From contig NC_060892.1 of the NCBI RefSeq assembly GCF_014805685.1, forward strand, positions 15,072,990-15,136,989: a DNA stretch of 64,000 nucleotides. Reading direction: 5' to 3'. This DNA comes from Silurus meridionalis (lineage: Eukaryota > Chordata > Actinopteri > Siluriformes > Siluridae). Positions 20,835 through 24,951 of the stretch are shown here, one piece after another. The first letter of the stretch is position 1. Every line of letters begins with the position of its first letter. The position numbers and the translations under genes are program-made. The notes beneath the pieces are model-generated. The model worked only from the letters and a program-made list of their open reading frames with translations. It was not told where the DNA came from and did not search any database.

Positions 20835-23800
20835 TCAGAATATTGTTAAACTAAGTGAGCGGTTAATTTTTTTCCCAAACAGACTGGACGATCGGCTATA
20901 CTTGGTTCCTTGGGAACGTGTCACAGAAAAGCTCGGTTCTGCAGCTGCTGTGGACGACTGGATTTCACTCAGCTCTCTGGACAAAAACAAAAACAAAGTG
21001 AGTTCAGTGAAGATGTTAGCTAACTGAAACAGCATTTATCAAATTGAAGCCTGGCTGATTTTACACCACTAAAACTGCAGAACTTACTTCATGAGCAGTG
21101 CGTTTCTGAACTTCTGTGCATGAAGCTGCTCCTGCAGACTTCCAGCACTCAAACTGCACACAGGCTGGAGGATGGTGTGTTTAATGAGGGCTGAGGATGA
21201 AGGTCTGCACACAGGGTCCGGATGAATCATGAGCTGTAAGTAAAATGTACAAATATTTTAAAGAATATCATCTTGGATGATAAAGTTGTTACTATGTTAC
21301 CACCCCGACACTGATTAGGGTTTATTCTTCTCATTTCTAACATTTTATCAACCATAAATTAATGTAATGCTTTTCATCAATTAATAGTACATTAAATGTC
21401 TGTGAGAGTTATTTTCAAGCAGCTAGAAACGTCCTTCAAAAGGTTTGTGAAGTTGACAAATCAGAAACTGCATTATGCATACGTCATGCCACTTTTCCCC
21501 CATTCCCCCACAGGCACATTCCCCCAAGTAACTAAAAGACTTGTCTCCCAAATGCCAAGACTGAAACTACCTACATAATTATTACATTTTCATCTCCCTA
21601 CCAGTGATTTTTCTTGTTATATAATATAATTAACATATATTATTAACATTATAAATCCTAAACTGCTTACAGGAAACTACAGTCTCATGCTTATAACAAT
21701 ATCTGCTCAACACCGCTAAATCCAAGAAATCTCACATGCATTATACACTCATCTAAATGAAACAAACCTTGAGCAGTTGTTGAAATGCTATTGACAGCAC
21801 GAAAGCTACAGTTGGGAGTTCCCCTCTGCGTACGGCATGCCACTTTTCCCCATTCTTTGGGAGCTCTTTTGCTCTACAGGCAGTAGTCACTGTGAGTGCC
21901 AGGGCAAAAATATCCGCTTTCTGTAGATTCCTGTAATCCTGAAAGACCGGCACGGTTAGTTCATCCAGTGTATAAATAAAGAATAATTACAGTAGATTAG
22001 CTAAGAGGAGTGATTTACTTCTTGCAGGATCTCATTGGCTAAAAATCTTCTGTCTCCTTCTGCCACTCTTGGGCTACTCACATGAGTCACATGACCAAGG
22101 TTTCCTAAAGAAGGAAACAAAAAACCATTGTAATTTTTATTATACTCAGCTACTTTTCTGTAATGCAGAAGTACAAGAAAGTGTGCTACAAACCTATTTT
22201 GTACACGACGTCTGCATCTGATTCATGGACATCTGTGTTCTGAGCAGCTGCTCTCCTTGATATAAATATATTACCTGCAAACAAAAAGGATATGATGCTT
22301 TAGAATAAACTACACAAAATAAACCAGGCCTACATTACGTGAATTTGGCTTACTTGGTTTGATGTTCATATGAGTGAGAGAAGCTGAGTGGATGTACTTC
22401 AAACCCCGTGAAACGTGCAGAAGCAAATTCTTCAGTTGAGCTTCAGAAAAGAACTTCAGTGTTCTCCGGTTCTCTGTGATGAGTTGCTCGAGTGTTCCTC
22501 CGTTGCAGTACTCATTCTGAAGAAGCACATATTCATCCTCCGTCCATGCAGAGTAATACCTCACCACATGGGGGTGCTGTCCCAGTACAGCATGGGCATA
22601 CACCTCGTGTAGAGCCTTCTGCCTTTAACAGGAAACACATTTTAAAGGTCAGTACGAGCAGCACATATTATAACACAATAACATGTACTAATATAATTCA
22701 AAGTTAAAAACTGTTTCTTGCAGTTTCACACACACTTATGACGCTATAGACTTGTTGAATTCAGTTATAGTCCTTTTATCAGTGGATCACAAAGCAGGTT
22801 AACAGAGACAAATACATTCTAAATATACATGTTAATACATTTATCCATATTTATTTATTCCTAATGAGCAAGTCAGAGGCAGTGGTGGATGTGTGCAAAG
22901 AAACATTAGAAATGGCGAGATACTGCATGTAAATTTCAGACATGAATTGTGACTATTGTCACACACGTGTTGTGCAACAATTTGTACTTATCTATTGAAA
23001 TATTATAAGAGATGAAAAGAAAGATACATTAAACTAATGAGTGAATCTAGTATTTTATATTATCCTATTATAAGATTATATTAAATCAAATATATGGTTA
23101 TTAAACCAAGTCTAACACTGGTAGAATATTCTTTTCCTTTTTTTTCTTTAAAAGACACAGTGAACAGCCTGAAATGGAGTAAACCCTCCAAAACATGGCA
23201 TAACAACCTTATATTGATTTATAACAAACTTTTTTTACTAGGGTTTACTAGGATGACTTAAATTTTCTGCAGACCAGGTAAACAGAATGCTGAAATTACT
23301 TACTCATCCACAGAACCTTCTAAAGGGCTTTTGGAGCACTTGATGGCATAGATACACCCATCAAGTCTTTTCACACATTTGAAAACGGCTCCAAACTGTC
23401 CGGAGCTGATTTTCTCCAATTCGTAGAATTCAGATTTGTAGCGAGATGTTGAACTCGCTTCAACATTCTTTCTCTGAAAATGTGGGGGGAAAAAAGGCTT
23501 TGTCATGTCTTAAATAACAGGTAGGCAGAACAAATTATGATTAAGGAGTGATTTCTCATCTCCAATATTATGTAGTGTATGTGTAGGGCCTTTACCTTTA
23601 ATGGGGGAATAAAGTCCTCCTCAAATTGCTCCCATGCACTGTTATAAAAAATAAATAAAAACATGACATATCCATAAATAAACAGTACAAATAAAAAAGG
23701 ACATGAATTATTTAAAATTATTACCATTATTTTTGGTTTGATGAATGACACAAGGAGTTGTTTAAAGGCACTCAGAGATTAGTGTACAGTATTTTAGCAA

Positions 23801-24951
23801 TAAAGTTTAAGCAGAGCAACAACTTTCAAAGCCCTTTTTTTAATAAGTTAAGGTTAAGGGCTAATGGTTAAACAGATAATAAAATAATTAATATAATAGA
23901 CATACAGCTTTCTTTTTTTCTCCATCCTGAAACCATGTGCCTTTGCACTGTATGTGTGCTTTAGTTTTACTATCTGTACTATCATGTGTAATATTTACTA
24001 TAATCTCCTACTAACGGGTGTCTATAAACATTATAAGTGTAGTCAGGATATCCGGTATTTTGGTCTAAAAACTAGTGAAAATTAATAAATAATGTCAACT
24101 GAAATCTAAAATAATGACAAAGACGGGGTGGAAAGTCCAGCATTTCTAGAAAAAACTTTATCAATTCTTGTCACTGAAATGATACTATGATTATGCTCAT
24201 TATTGTATAGTAACACTTTAAGTGAAACCAGATAAAAGATAACCACAAAAGTTAAACAGTAACTTTAAATAATGTGCCTCACATTTGAATAGTGCAAAAA
24301 CTTCCTGTTTTACATTCTGTGAAACATTTTGTGTGTATTTGCCTAGTTTCTTGTAAATCCAAGTGACCTTAATTTACACTTACTCTTTCTGATGGTTGCG
24401 GTTCCTCTTCGCACTCACAGTCTGGACGAGAAGTGAGTCTGGAGTGAATGGGTTTACATTAATCCCCCATCTCTTTATTTCTGATTTTGGAGTGACGTAT
24501 GAATGCAAACTTTCTCTCTTCCTCAAAGAATGGCCTTTTTTCCACTGAAACACAGAGAGATAATGTTTAGGGTTTAAAAATACACTTAGATTAATGCCAC
24601 CAAAAAACTGAATATATACAGAGAACACTGAATAGCATGTAGGCAGGTGATTACATTGTTAGATTTTCTGAAGTGTCTGGAGGTGAGACGCGATGGAGAC
24701 GTGTCTCTGCATGAAATGGAAGATGGAGTCTCAGTGTCACTCAAGTTGGCTGTGAGCAGTGCAGGGGATTCAATGGAATCTTCATTTATAGTCATTTCAT
24801 GTTCTGTACATTCTGGAGTGTTTCGGAGAAACCCTTCACATACTGCATTGGATGGCAAAAATCTCAGCTCTTCTTCAATTCCTCTGCAGCTGCTGTCCTC
24901 AACAACAGCACTGAAATTCAACCTCTGGCGAACTGGTCTTATTTTGGGCAT
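20835..24951 (-). CDS. wee1: Wee1-type kinase homologue, predicted catalytically dead
   Basis: Active Wee1 phosphorylates CDK1 on Tyr15 in the nucleus and blocks mitotic entry. Coding exons, 5' to 3' on the minus strand: 24655-24951, 24384-24544, 23596-23638, 23304-23473, 22354-22622, 22194-22274, 22019-22104, 21768-21938, 21088-21233, 20835-20976. They total 1566 nt, or 521 aa, with no stop or frameshift. The N-terminus has RPVRQRLNFS, then NVNPFTPDSLL (a Wee family signature). The kinase domain spans about 180-435 and the C-terminus reads GKKINRSLSLTIF, close to WEE1. Lys212 (AIK) and Glu230 remain, but the glycine loop reads ISSGQFG, the catalytic loop HMNIKPSN (Asn310 for Asp) and the metal-binding motif NLG (Asn342 for Asp). 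Position between swap70 and znf143 matches human WEE1. At 521 aa it is shorter than human WEE1 (646). The first exon begins exactly at the ATG after an acceptor-like CAG, so a leader exon upstream is likely and an upstream coding exon cannot be excluded. Confidence 0.88.

Follow-up and report, generated by a model that had tools for sequence, protein, structure and literature searches.

What remains of a mitotic kinase when both of its catalytic aspartates have been replaced? The question is raised by a gene of the Wee1 family, here called wee1b, on the minus strand of a stretch of 64,000 nucleotides (nt) from the catfish Silurus meridionalis (contig NC_060892.1; the whole stretch is referred to as the window), in which it spans positions 20835 to 24951. 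Since both catalytic aspartates are Asn, the protein is predicted to lack Tyr15 kinase activity. We favour, at somewhat better than even chances, a reading of Silurus Wee1b as a predicted pseudokinase that would be unable to phosphorylate Tyr15 of Cdk1, likely binds partners and probably modulates the active Wee1a. Across the catfish copies, the best reading of the sequences is a predicted Wee1 pseudokinase in most of the catfish sampled, likely acting via its retained binding elements.

Re-splicing of the minus strand joined ten exons into 1566 nt, encoding 521 amino acids (aa) and a stop codon with zero internal stops. At the internal junctions every acceptor was AG and every donor GT. The unbroken 521-aa frame given in the preliminary description was thereby confirmed, and it matched a Silurus meridionalis entry, P0001 (wee1-like protein kinase 1-A isoform X2), with 100% identity over 100% of its length; this entry is a member of a cluster of four sequences. 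The spliced protein contained a Pfam Pkinase domain (E = 5.2e-41), and its matches among solved structures included human Wee1 with about 400 bits, Wee2 with 343 and PKMYT1 with 136. By its sequence, the gene product belongs to the Wee1 kinase family by descent. A retrocopy or processed pseudogene was ruled out by the ten exons together with the open frame. The gene and its substituted codons, all on the minus strand, are the following.

20835..24951, minus strand: wee1b coding region, 521 aa, from the spliced frame and the match to the Silurus meridionalis entry
24951-24655, 24544-24384, 23638-23596, 23473-23304, 22622-22354, minus strand: wee1b exons 1-5, GT-AG splicing
22274-22194, 22104-22019, 21938-21768, 21233-21088, 20976-20835, minus strand: wee1b exons 6-10, GT-AG splicing
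22364..22366, minus strand: codon 310, AAC, catalytic-base Asp replaced by Asn (HMNIKPSN), from codon reading
22100..22102, minus strand: codon 342, AAC, metal-binding DLG Asp replaced by Asn (NLG), from codon reading
23405..23407, minus strand: codon 190, AGC, first glycine-loop Gly replaced by Ser (ISSGQFG), from codon reading

Both Asn codons had been described beforehand, and reading of the codons at 22366-22364 and 22102-22100 bore them out. The claim of an altered glycine loop stood only in part. Its first residue, Ser in Silurus, was Gly in every one of the 108 other Wee1 proteins, making this exchange an unusual one; the Gln in place of Glu, in contrast, was rejected as a defect, with 8 of the same 108 proteins having Gln there. 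Lys212, Glu230, KPSN and the C-terminal SLTIF had been listed as kept, in agreement with the spliced sequence and the alignment, where the C-terminus reads RSLSLTIF. The earlier call of a pseudokinase holds as a prediction, both phosphotransfer aspartates being gone while Lys212, Glu230 and KPSN remain. We infer that the protein no longer transfers phosphate or binds metal in the normal way, and that selection has kept it for a role other than catalysis.

The comparison with relatives was based on two protein searches with 1410 and 1505 matches, the best 120 of each giving 127 proteins in total: 11 from catfish, 8 from characiforms, which together make up a fast clade, and 108 other Wee1 proteins. 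When all 127 rows were aligned, DLG and the catalytic-loop Asp (HMD) were each present in 108 of the 108 proteins outside the fast clade, and the characiform wee1b copies had HMD and DLG intact in eight of eight cases. DLG was altered at D or G in all ten readable catfish copies, the model of the eleventh, Bagarius, being without the segment. The alignment gave these states at the DLG position.

NLG: Silurus, Hemibagrus, two Tachysurus
GLG: Trichomycterus
GFS: Neoarius
DFS: Clarias
DLS: Pangasianodon, Pangasius, Ictalurus

One or both aspartates were gone from seven of the ten readable copies, whereas the other three, those of the DLS species, had lost neither. Parsimony on the gene tree required at least four changes of the D column and at least three of the G column inside catfish. 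The pattern is therefore wider than the one species of the preliminary description, with DLG altered in every readable catfish copy. The check proposed there, whether both Asn are fixed across species, gave a divided answer: each is shared with some relatives, but HMN is found in only 2 of 11 catfish copies (Silurus and Clarias) and NLG in 4 of the 10 readable ones. A side observation concerned the characiforms Pygocentrus and Metynnis (P0014 and P0017; two of eight), where KPSS replaces KPSN, so that the metal-binding Asn of the catalytic loop is lost with HMD and DLG intact. Judged by its sequence, this is a separate route to metal-site damage.

The distribution of changes was assessed at canonical-invariant columns, defined as columns with one residue in at least 99% of the 108 other Wee1 proteins. 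There are 156 such columns in the kinase domain, of which 89 never change inside catfish. Changes were concentrated between the DFG and APE-like motifs: residues 341-366 had 32 changes in 16 invariant columns (2.00 per column) versus 90 in the 140 columns of the rest of the domain (0.64; Mann-Whitney p = 9e-6). Without both Tachysurus and Bagarius, the counts were 27 (1.69) versus 66 (0.47; p = 3e-5), and the excess persisted when, beyond these three odd models, Trichomycterus (p = 3e-4) or Silurus (p = 5e-5) was also left out. Among 221 windows of 26 residues, again without the three odd models, the segment ranked second, after its own one-residue neighbour. Characiforms showed no excess there (3 changes versus 38 elsewhere, p = 0.76). 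A second hot spot in catfish was the loop between beta3 and helix C, with 18 changes over 9 columns. The hinge residues N260, E261, Y262, C263 and G266 were kept in 11 of 11 catfish copies; His308 and Lys312 in the catalytic loop were also kept, and the pocket residue A210 was Thr in 2 of 10. The kinase fold may be retained, the sequence match to solved structures covering the domain. The segments and residues in question, with the elements outside the kinase domain, are located as follows.

22031..22104, minus strand: DFG-to-APE-like segment, approximately residues 341-365, where catfish changes concentrate, from per-column change counts
23339..23341, minus strand: codon 212, AAG, beta3 Lys, retained, Lys in 10 of 10 readable catfish copies
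22604..22606, minus strand: codon 230, GAG, helix-C Glu, retained, Glu in 11 of 11 catfish copies
24431..24466, minus strand: Wee-box core, residues 126-137, NPFTPDS with the Cdk-type site Thr133-Pro, retained, from the alignment
24655..24696, minus strand: position of the RxL1 cyclin-docking and Crm1 export element, residues 86-99, lost, FRKSNN versus canonical FRKLRLF
20838..20861, minus strand: C-terminal RSLSLTIF, residues 514-521, 14-3-3-type site (human S642 region), retained, from alignments

Two of the elements outside the kinase domain were thus kept and one was lost. The Wee-box core deviated in 1 of 60 catfish cells at its six invariant columns, and Thr133 corresponds by position to human T239, which the Wee box is reported to contain (PMC2886006; this and the other articles given by PMC number are cited from excerpts). 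A stretch corresponding to FRKLRLFDTP was considered as the Wee box and rejected, being the RxL1/export region, whereas the Wee box holds T239 (NPFTPDS) according to the same excerpts. At the eight invariant columns of the RxL1/export element (residues 86-98), 62 of 73 catfish cells and 29 of 52 characiform cells deviated, in a part where the alignment is loose. RxL1 is described as steering cyclin A/Cdk2 to the Wee box and as mediating Crm1 export of Wee1 (PMC2886006). The RxL1 region is already altered in several characiforms, and the long stem of the clade precedes the loss of the aspartates; in the lineage of catfish and characiforms, a change in regulation may have come first and that in catalysis later. 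Three overlapping alignments (27, 50 and 102 rows) all showed R514, S515, S517 and L518 of the C-terminal tail as invariant. Phosphorylation of Ser642 has been linked to binding of 14-3-3, the reported outcome being either higher activity or localization to the cytoplasm (PMC1868713).

A mechanism can be proposed from these elements. Reportedly, the Wee box stimulates the kinase domain of Wee1 even when it acts in trans (PMC2886006). A catalytically dead Wee1b with Wee-box core and 14-3-3 tail retained could serve as a binding partner for Wee1a, and with the RxL1/export element lost it would be nuclear and less sensitive to Cdk. That it would modulate Wee1a as a Wee-box and 14-3-3 partner is the most speculative step. 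Put at its fullest, the proposal is that the second wee1 of catfish is the first known Wee1-family pseudokinase, a nuclear and dead protein selected as a trans-acting Wee-box and 14-3-3 partner tuning Wee1a, whose metal site was dismantled repeatedly once catalysis had become irrelevant. We advance it tentatively and think it, taken as a whole, rather unlikely.

Whether selection still acts on the gene was examined with private substitutions, in which one species differs from the 70% consensus of the other catfish, the expectation being taken from 2000 shuffles. Over the 11 species, 89 of 323 private substitutions fell on canonical-invariant columns versus 155.9 expected, with 0 of 2000 shuffles as low. 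The result was the same without the three odd models (68 of 254 versus 122.9; 0 of 2000) and in the kinase domain of the pooled catfish (55 versus 84.0; 0 of 2000), and for Silurus alone there were 12 of 43 versus 20.3 expected (12 of 2000). The C-tail was under little constraint, with 20 versus 27.0 in the pooled set (45 of 2000) and 15 versus 19.0 without the odd models (183 of 2000). For this coding sequence under neutrality, 0.050-0.064 stops are expected per missense change. The tree branch length of about 167 changes would then give 8-11 stops, with a chance of none below 3e-4, and none was seen. The best reading of these protein-level tests is that they favour continuing, weak selection on catfish wee1b. 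Of the two fates suggested beforehand, retention for scaffolding or for competition with active Wee1 may apply, the tests favouring continued constraint even though some catfish copies look eroded, and early decay is unlikely because the motif changes are spread over all catfish families sampled.

The trees placed the gene as follows. The 11 catfish and 8 characiform proteins grouped together as a single clade in the 66-row tree (Shimodaira-Hasegawa-like approximate likelihood ratio test, SH-aLRT, 100), and in the tree of all 127 rows a clade with support 100 held exactly these 19. A careful tree of 44 rows, which included 13 of the 19, recovered it with support 100/100 on a very long stem of 0.79 changes per column, and grouped it with one wee1 copy of Esox, Umbra, salmonids, Osmerus and Aplochiton (99/95). 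Two teleost wee1 sets were recovered with support 82/81 and 81/83, both eel copies lying within one set. The trees contained no Wee2 row. With this moderate support and both eel copies in one set, an origin in the teleost duplication is likely rather than shown; the gene is likely wee1b, the copy from the teleost genome duplication. An intact wee1a with HMD and DLG stands beside wee1b in the two catfish with both copies among the proteins listed, Tachysurus ichikawai (wee1b P0006, wee1a P0030) and Trichomycterus (P0012 and P0078). Among the best 120 matches of each search, no protein from cyprinids or electric fishes fell within or next to the fast clade, which suggests that wee1b was lost in both.

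Several findings weigh against a selected pseudokinase. Pangasianodon, Ictalurus and Pangasius, the DLS species, keep every catalytic Asp; their copies may be active, and a claim of a pseudokinase in all catfish is thus not proven. For Silurus the constraint on the kinase domain was weak (7 versus 10.4 expected, 122 of 2000) and that on the C-tail absent (3 versus 3.3, 1161 of 2000). Its 47 private changes over all columns would produce only about 2.7 stops (range 2.3-3.0), with a chance of none of about 0.07 (0.05-0.10). The absence of stops is further weakened by the protein database, which favours open frames and in which absent or broken copies are invisible. Some of the models are themselves defective: that of Bagarius is without the DFG segment, those of Tachysurus have altered or deleted activation segments, that of Clarias has an insert resembling a read intron, and that of Pangasius is a 308-aa partial. 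Two AlphaFold2 models, made from 50 and 102 sequences, had a mean predicted local distance difference test score (pLDDT) of 51.6 and 55.6 and were confident mainly in C-lobe helices; models this poor give no support for retention of the fold. Wee1 is also said to have other RxL sequences (PMC2886006), which bears on the proposed consequence of losing RxL1.

Part of this evidence would fit a redundant wee1 duplicate in slow decay, where Wee1a does the work, catalytic constraint was lost early in catfish and the open frames are the annotated survivors. We regard this as a real possibility, though one well short of even. The damage is of several kinds among the families sampled and includes the damaged or odd gene models of Bagarius, Tachysurus and Clarias; the branches of the wee1b clade are long, the kinase domain of Silurus alone is weakly constrained, wee1a is intact in the two catfish with both copies listed, and two of the eight characiforms have lost the metal-site Asn. 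Slow decay does not sit well, however, with the presence of proteins in 11 species despite a total tree length inside catfish of 3.3 changes per column, nor with how strongly the pooled substitutions avoid canonical-invariant columns. Neither would it account for damage focused on the catalytic segment, with hinge, Wee-box core and catalytic loop little changed, or for the splice sites of Silurus, all of which are intact. A kinase of unconventional type, binding ATP without normal metal coordination, as some atypical pseudokinases do, and with low or altered activity kept in the catfish copies, appears improbable to us. Lys212, Glu230, the hinge, His308 and Lys312 are kept and both Asp are present in the three DLS species, and there are precedents: cation-independent activity has been reported for CASK and, weakly, for TRIB2 and TRIB3 (PMC4718504), and very low activity for the HRN domains of HER3 and JAK2 (PMC9988210), the latter also a caution for the pseudokinase prediction. 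Silurus, however, has neither the catalytic base nor the metal-binding Asp, no stretch of the domain is more altered than DFG to APE, and no common compensating residue was noticed, no systematic search for one having been made.

Least probable of all, and by our estimate very improbable, is that the Asn codons are sequencing errors or are repaired in the RNA, adenosine-to-inosine (A-to-I) editing of AAC to GAC restoring the aspartates. Reading A as G would turn both Asn codons (AAC) back to Asp and the Ser190 codon (AGC) back to Gly. A sequencing error in both Asn is unlikely and was rejected, because each recurs in relatives: Clarias also has HMN, and Hemibagrus and two Tachysurus have NLG. 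As for editing, other catfish have Gly at the DLG Asp, which is beyond its reach. The base preceding the first A is G, and ADARs disfavour G immediately before the edited A. Local RNA structure in the 447 nt around the sites was unremarkable (z = -0.27, with 37 of 100 shuffles folding equally well), and G-to-A changes were not dominant, with 7 of 40 one-step private changes, a count given without an expectation. Editing of AAC to GAC was thus not supported, and the predicted pseudokinase with retained binding elements remains the reading we prefer.

Two neighbours of wee1b were located in the window.

16200..16568, minus strand: exon of a SWAP70-like gene in an open reading frame (ORF), downstream neighbour, Pfam EF-hand_SWAP70_N, E = 7.5e-21
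28205..28773, minus strand: ORFs of a C2H2 zinc-finger gene, upstream neighbour, Pfam zf-C2H2

The zinc-finger neighbour at 28205-28773 is, judging by its sequence, a putative ZNF143-like gene. The matches to its ORF were diverse, unrelated zinc-finger proteins, with ZNF143 not named among the 60 listed, and one neighbour ORF searched against solved structures gave no match. ZNF143, WEE1 and SWAP70 appear together in gene lists of turkey (PMC8470100) and sheep (PMC10376747), and the SWAP70 neighbour agrees with the surroundings of WEE1 in both. Together with the placement in the trees, this neighbour bears out as likely the earlier suggestion of a teleost-duplicate copy.

Other features of the window were recorded alongside. 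The presumed ZNF143-like gene contains a tandem direct duplication (31715-33704 / 33692-35677) of about 1.99 kb with 99.4% identity, both copies of which hold an exon reading SLEAVTLSDGSTAYIQHNAQG; it is either a recent exon duplication or an assembly artefact. Remains of a retroelement of reverse-transcriptase type at 30427-32039 (RVT_1, E = 4e-19 at 31006-31611) also appear to lie inside this gene, and further retroelement remains at 11207-12049, without a Pfam match, read much like the end of that element. A minisatellite at 13056-14000 consists of 21-bp units (ATCTCATAATTATGACTTAGT) in both orientations, with long open frames of repeated SHNYDLV. A polycystin-channel-type gene lies on the plus strand at 48089-51463 (PKD_channel, E = 4.4e-15 at 51107-51463), with a C-type-lectin ORF upstream of it at 37404-37826, and an exon of PSMD7/Rpn8, a proteasome lid subunit, on the minus strand at 53394-53879 (E = 3e-80 to solved proteasome chains).

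With Wee1, the somatic kinase represented by teleost wee1a, the Silurus protein shares the kinase-domain family, the N-E-Y-C hinge, the Wee-box core with its Thr-Pro and the 14-3-3-type tail RSxSLT. It differs in that both catalytic Asp are replaced, the DFG-to-APE segment is eroded in catfish and RxL1/export is lost; it is also shorter, with 521 aa versus about 600 in most canonical fish copies among the matches listed. PSKH2 of primates is likewise a predicted pseudokinase of one lineage, through Asp to Asn in HRD, with HRD kept in most relatives (PMC9988210). There, however, a single substitution is involved, whereas the catfish gene is changed at both the HRD and DFG Asp, with several DFG changes across one order. 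The pseudokinases HER3 and JAK2 JH2 retain the Asp of the DFG position. They, too, have Asn for the catalytic Asp (PMC9988210, PMC4718504), but regulate receptor or tethered kinase domains, whereas Wee1b is a relative of a cell-cycle kinase. EphA10 has both the HRD and the DFG Asp replaced (HRG and GFG; PMC7586955); it is, however, a receptor pseudokinase of another family with other replacing residues, and is also described there as being without the catalytic-loop Asn and the beta3 Lys. Among the open-licence papers listed in literature searches, no Wee1-family pseudokinase was apparent, and the titles and abstracts of those on catfish wee1 or on wee1 and the teleost duplication did not touch on this gene.

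Wee1 is a core brake on mitosis. The 11 catfish wee1b copies, with active sites dismantled in several ways, amount to a natural mutagenesis series, with which the requirements of Wee1 for catalysis and for binding can be told apart. They also offer a case of conversion of a kinase to a predicted pseudokinase after gene duplication. If the DLS copies are active and the NLG or GLG copies dead, the stepwise loss could be replayed in vitro.

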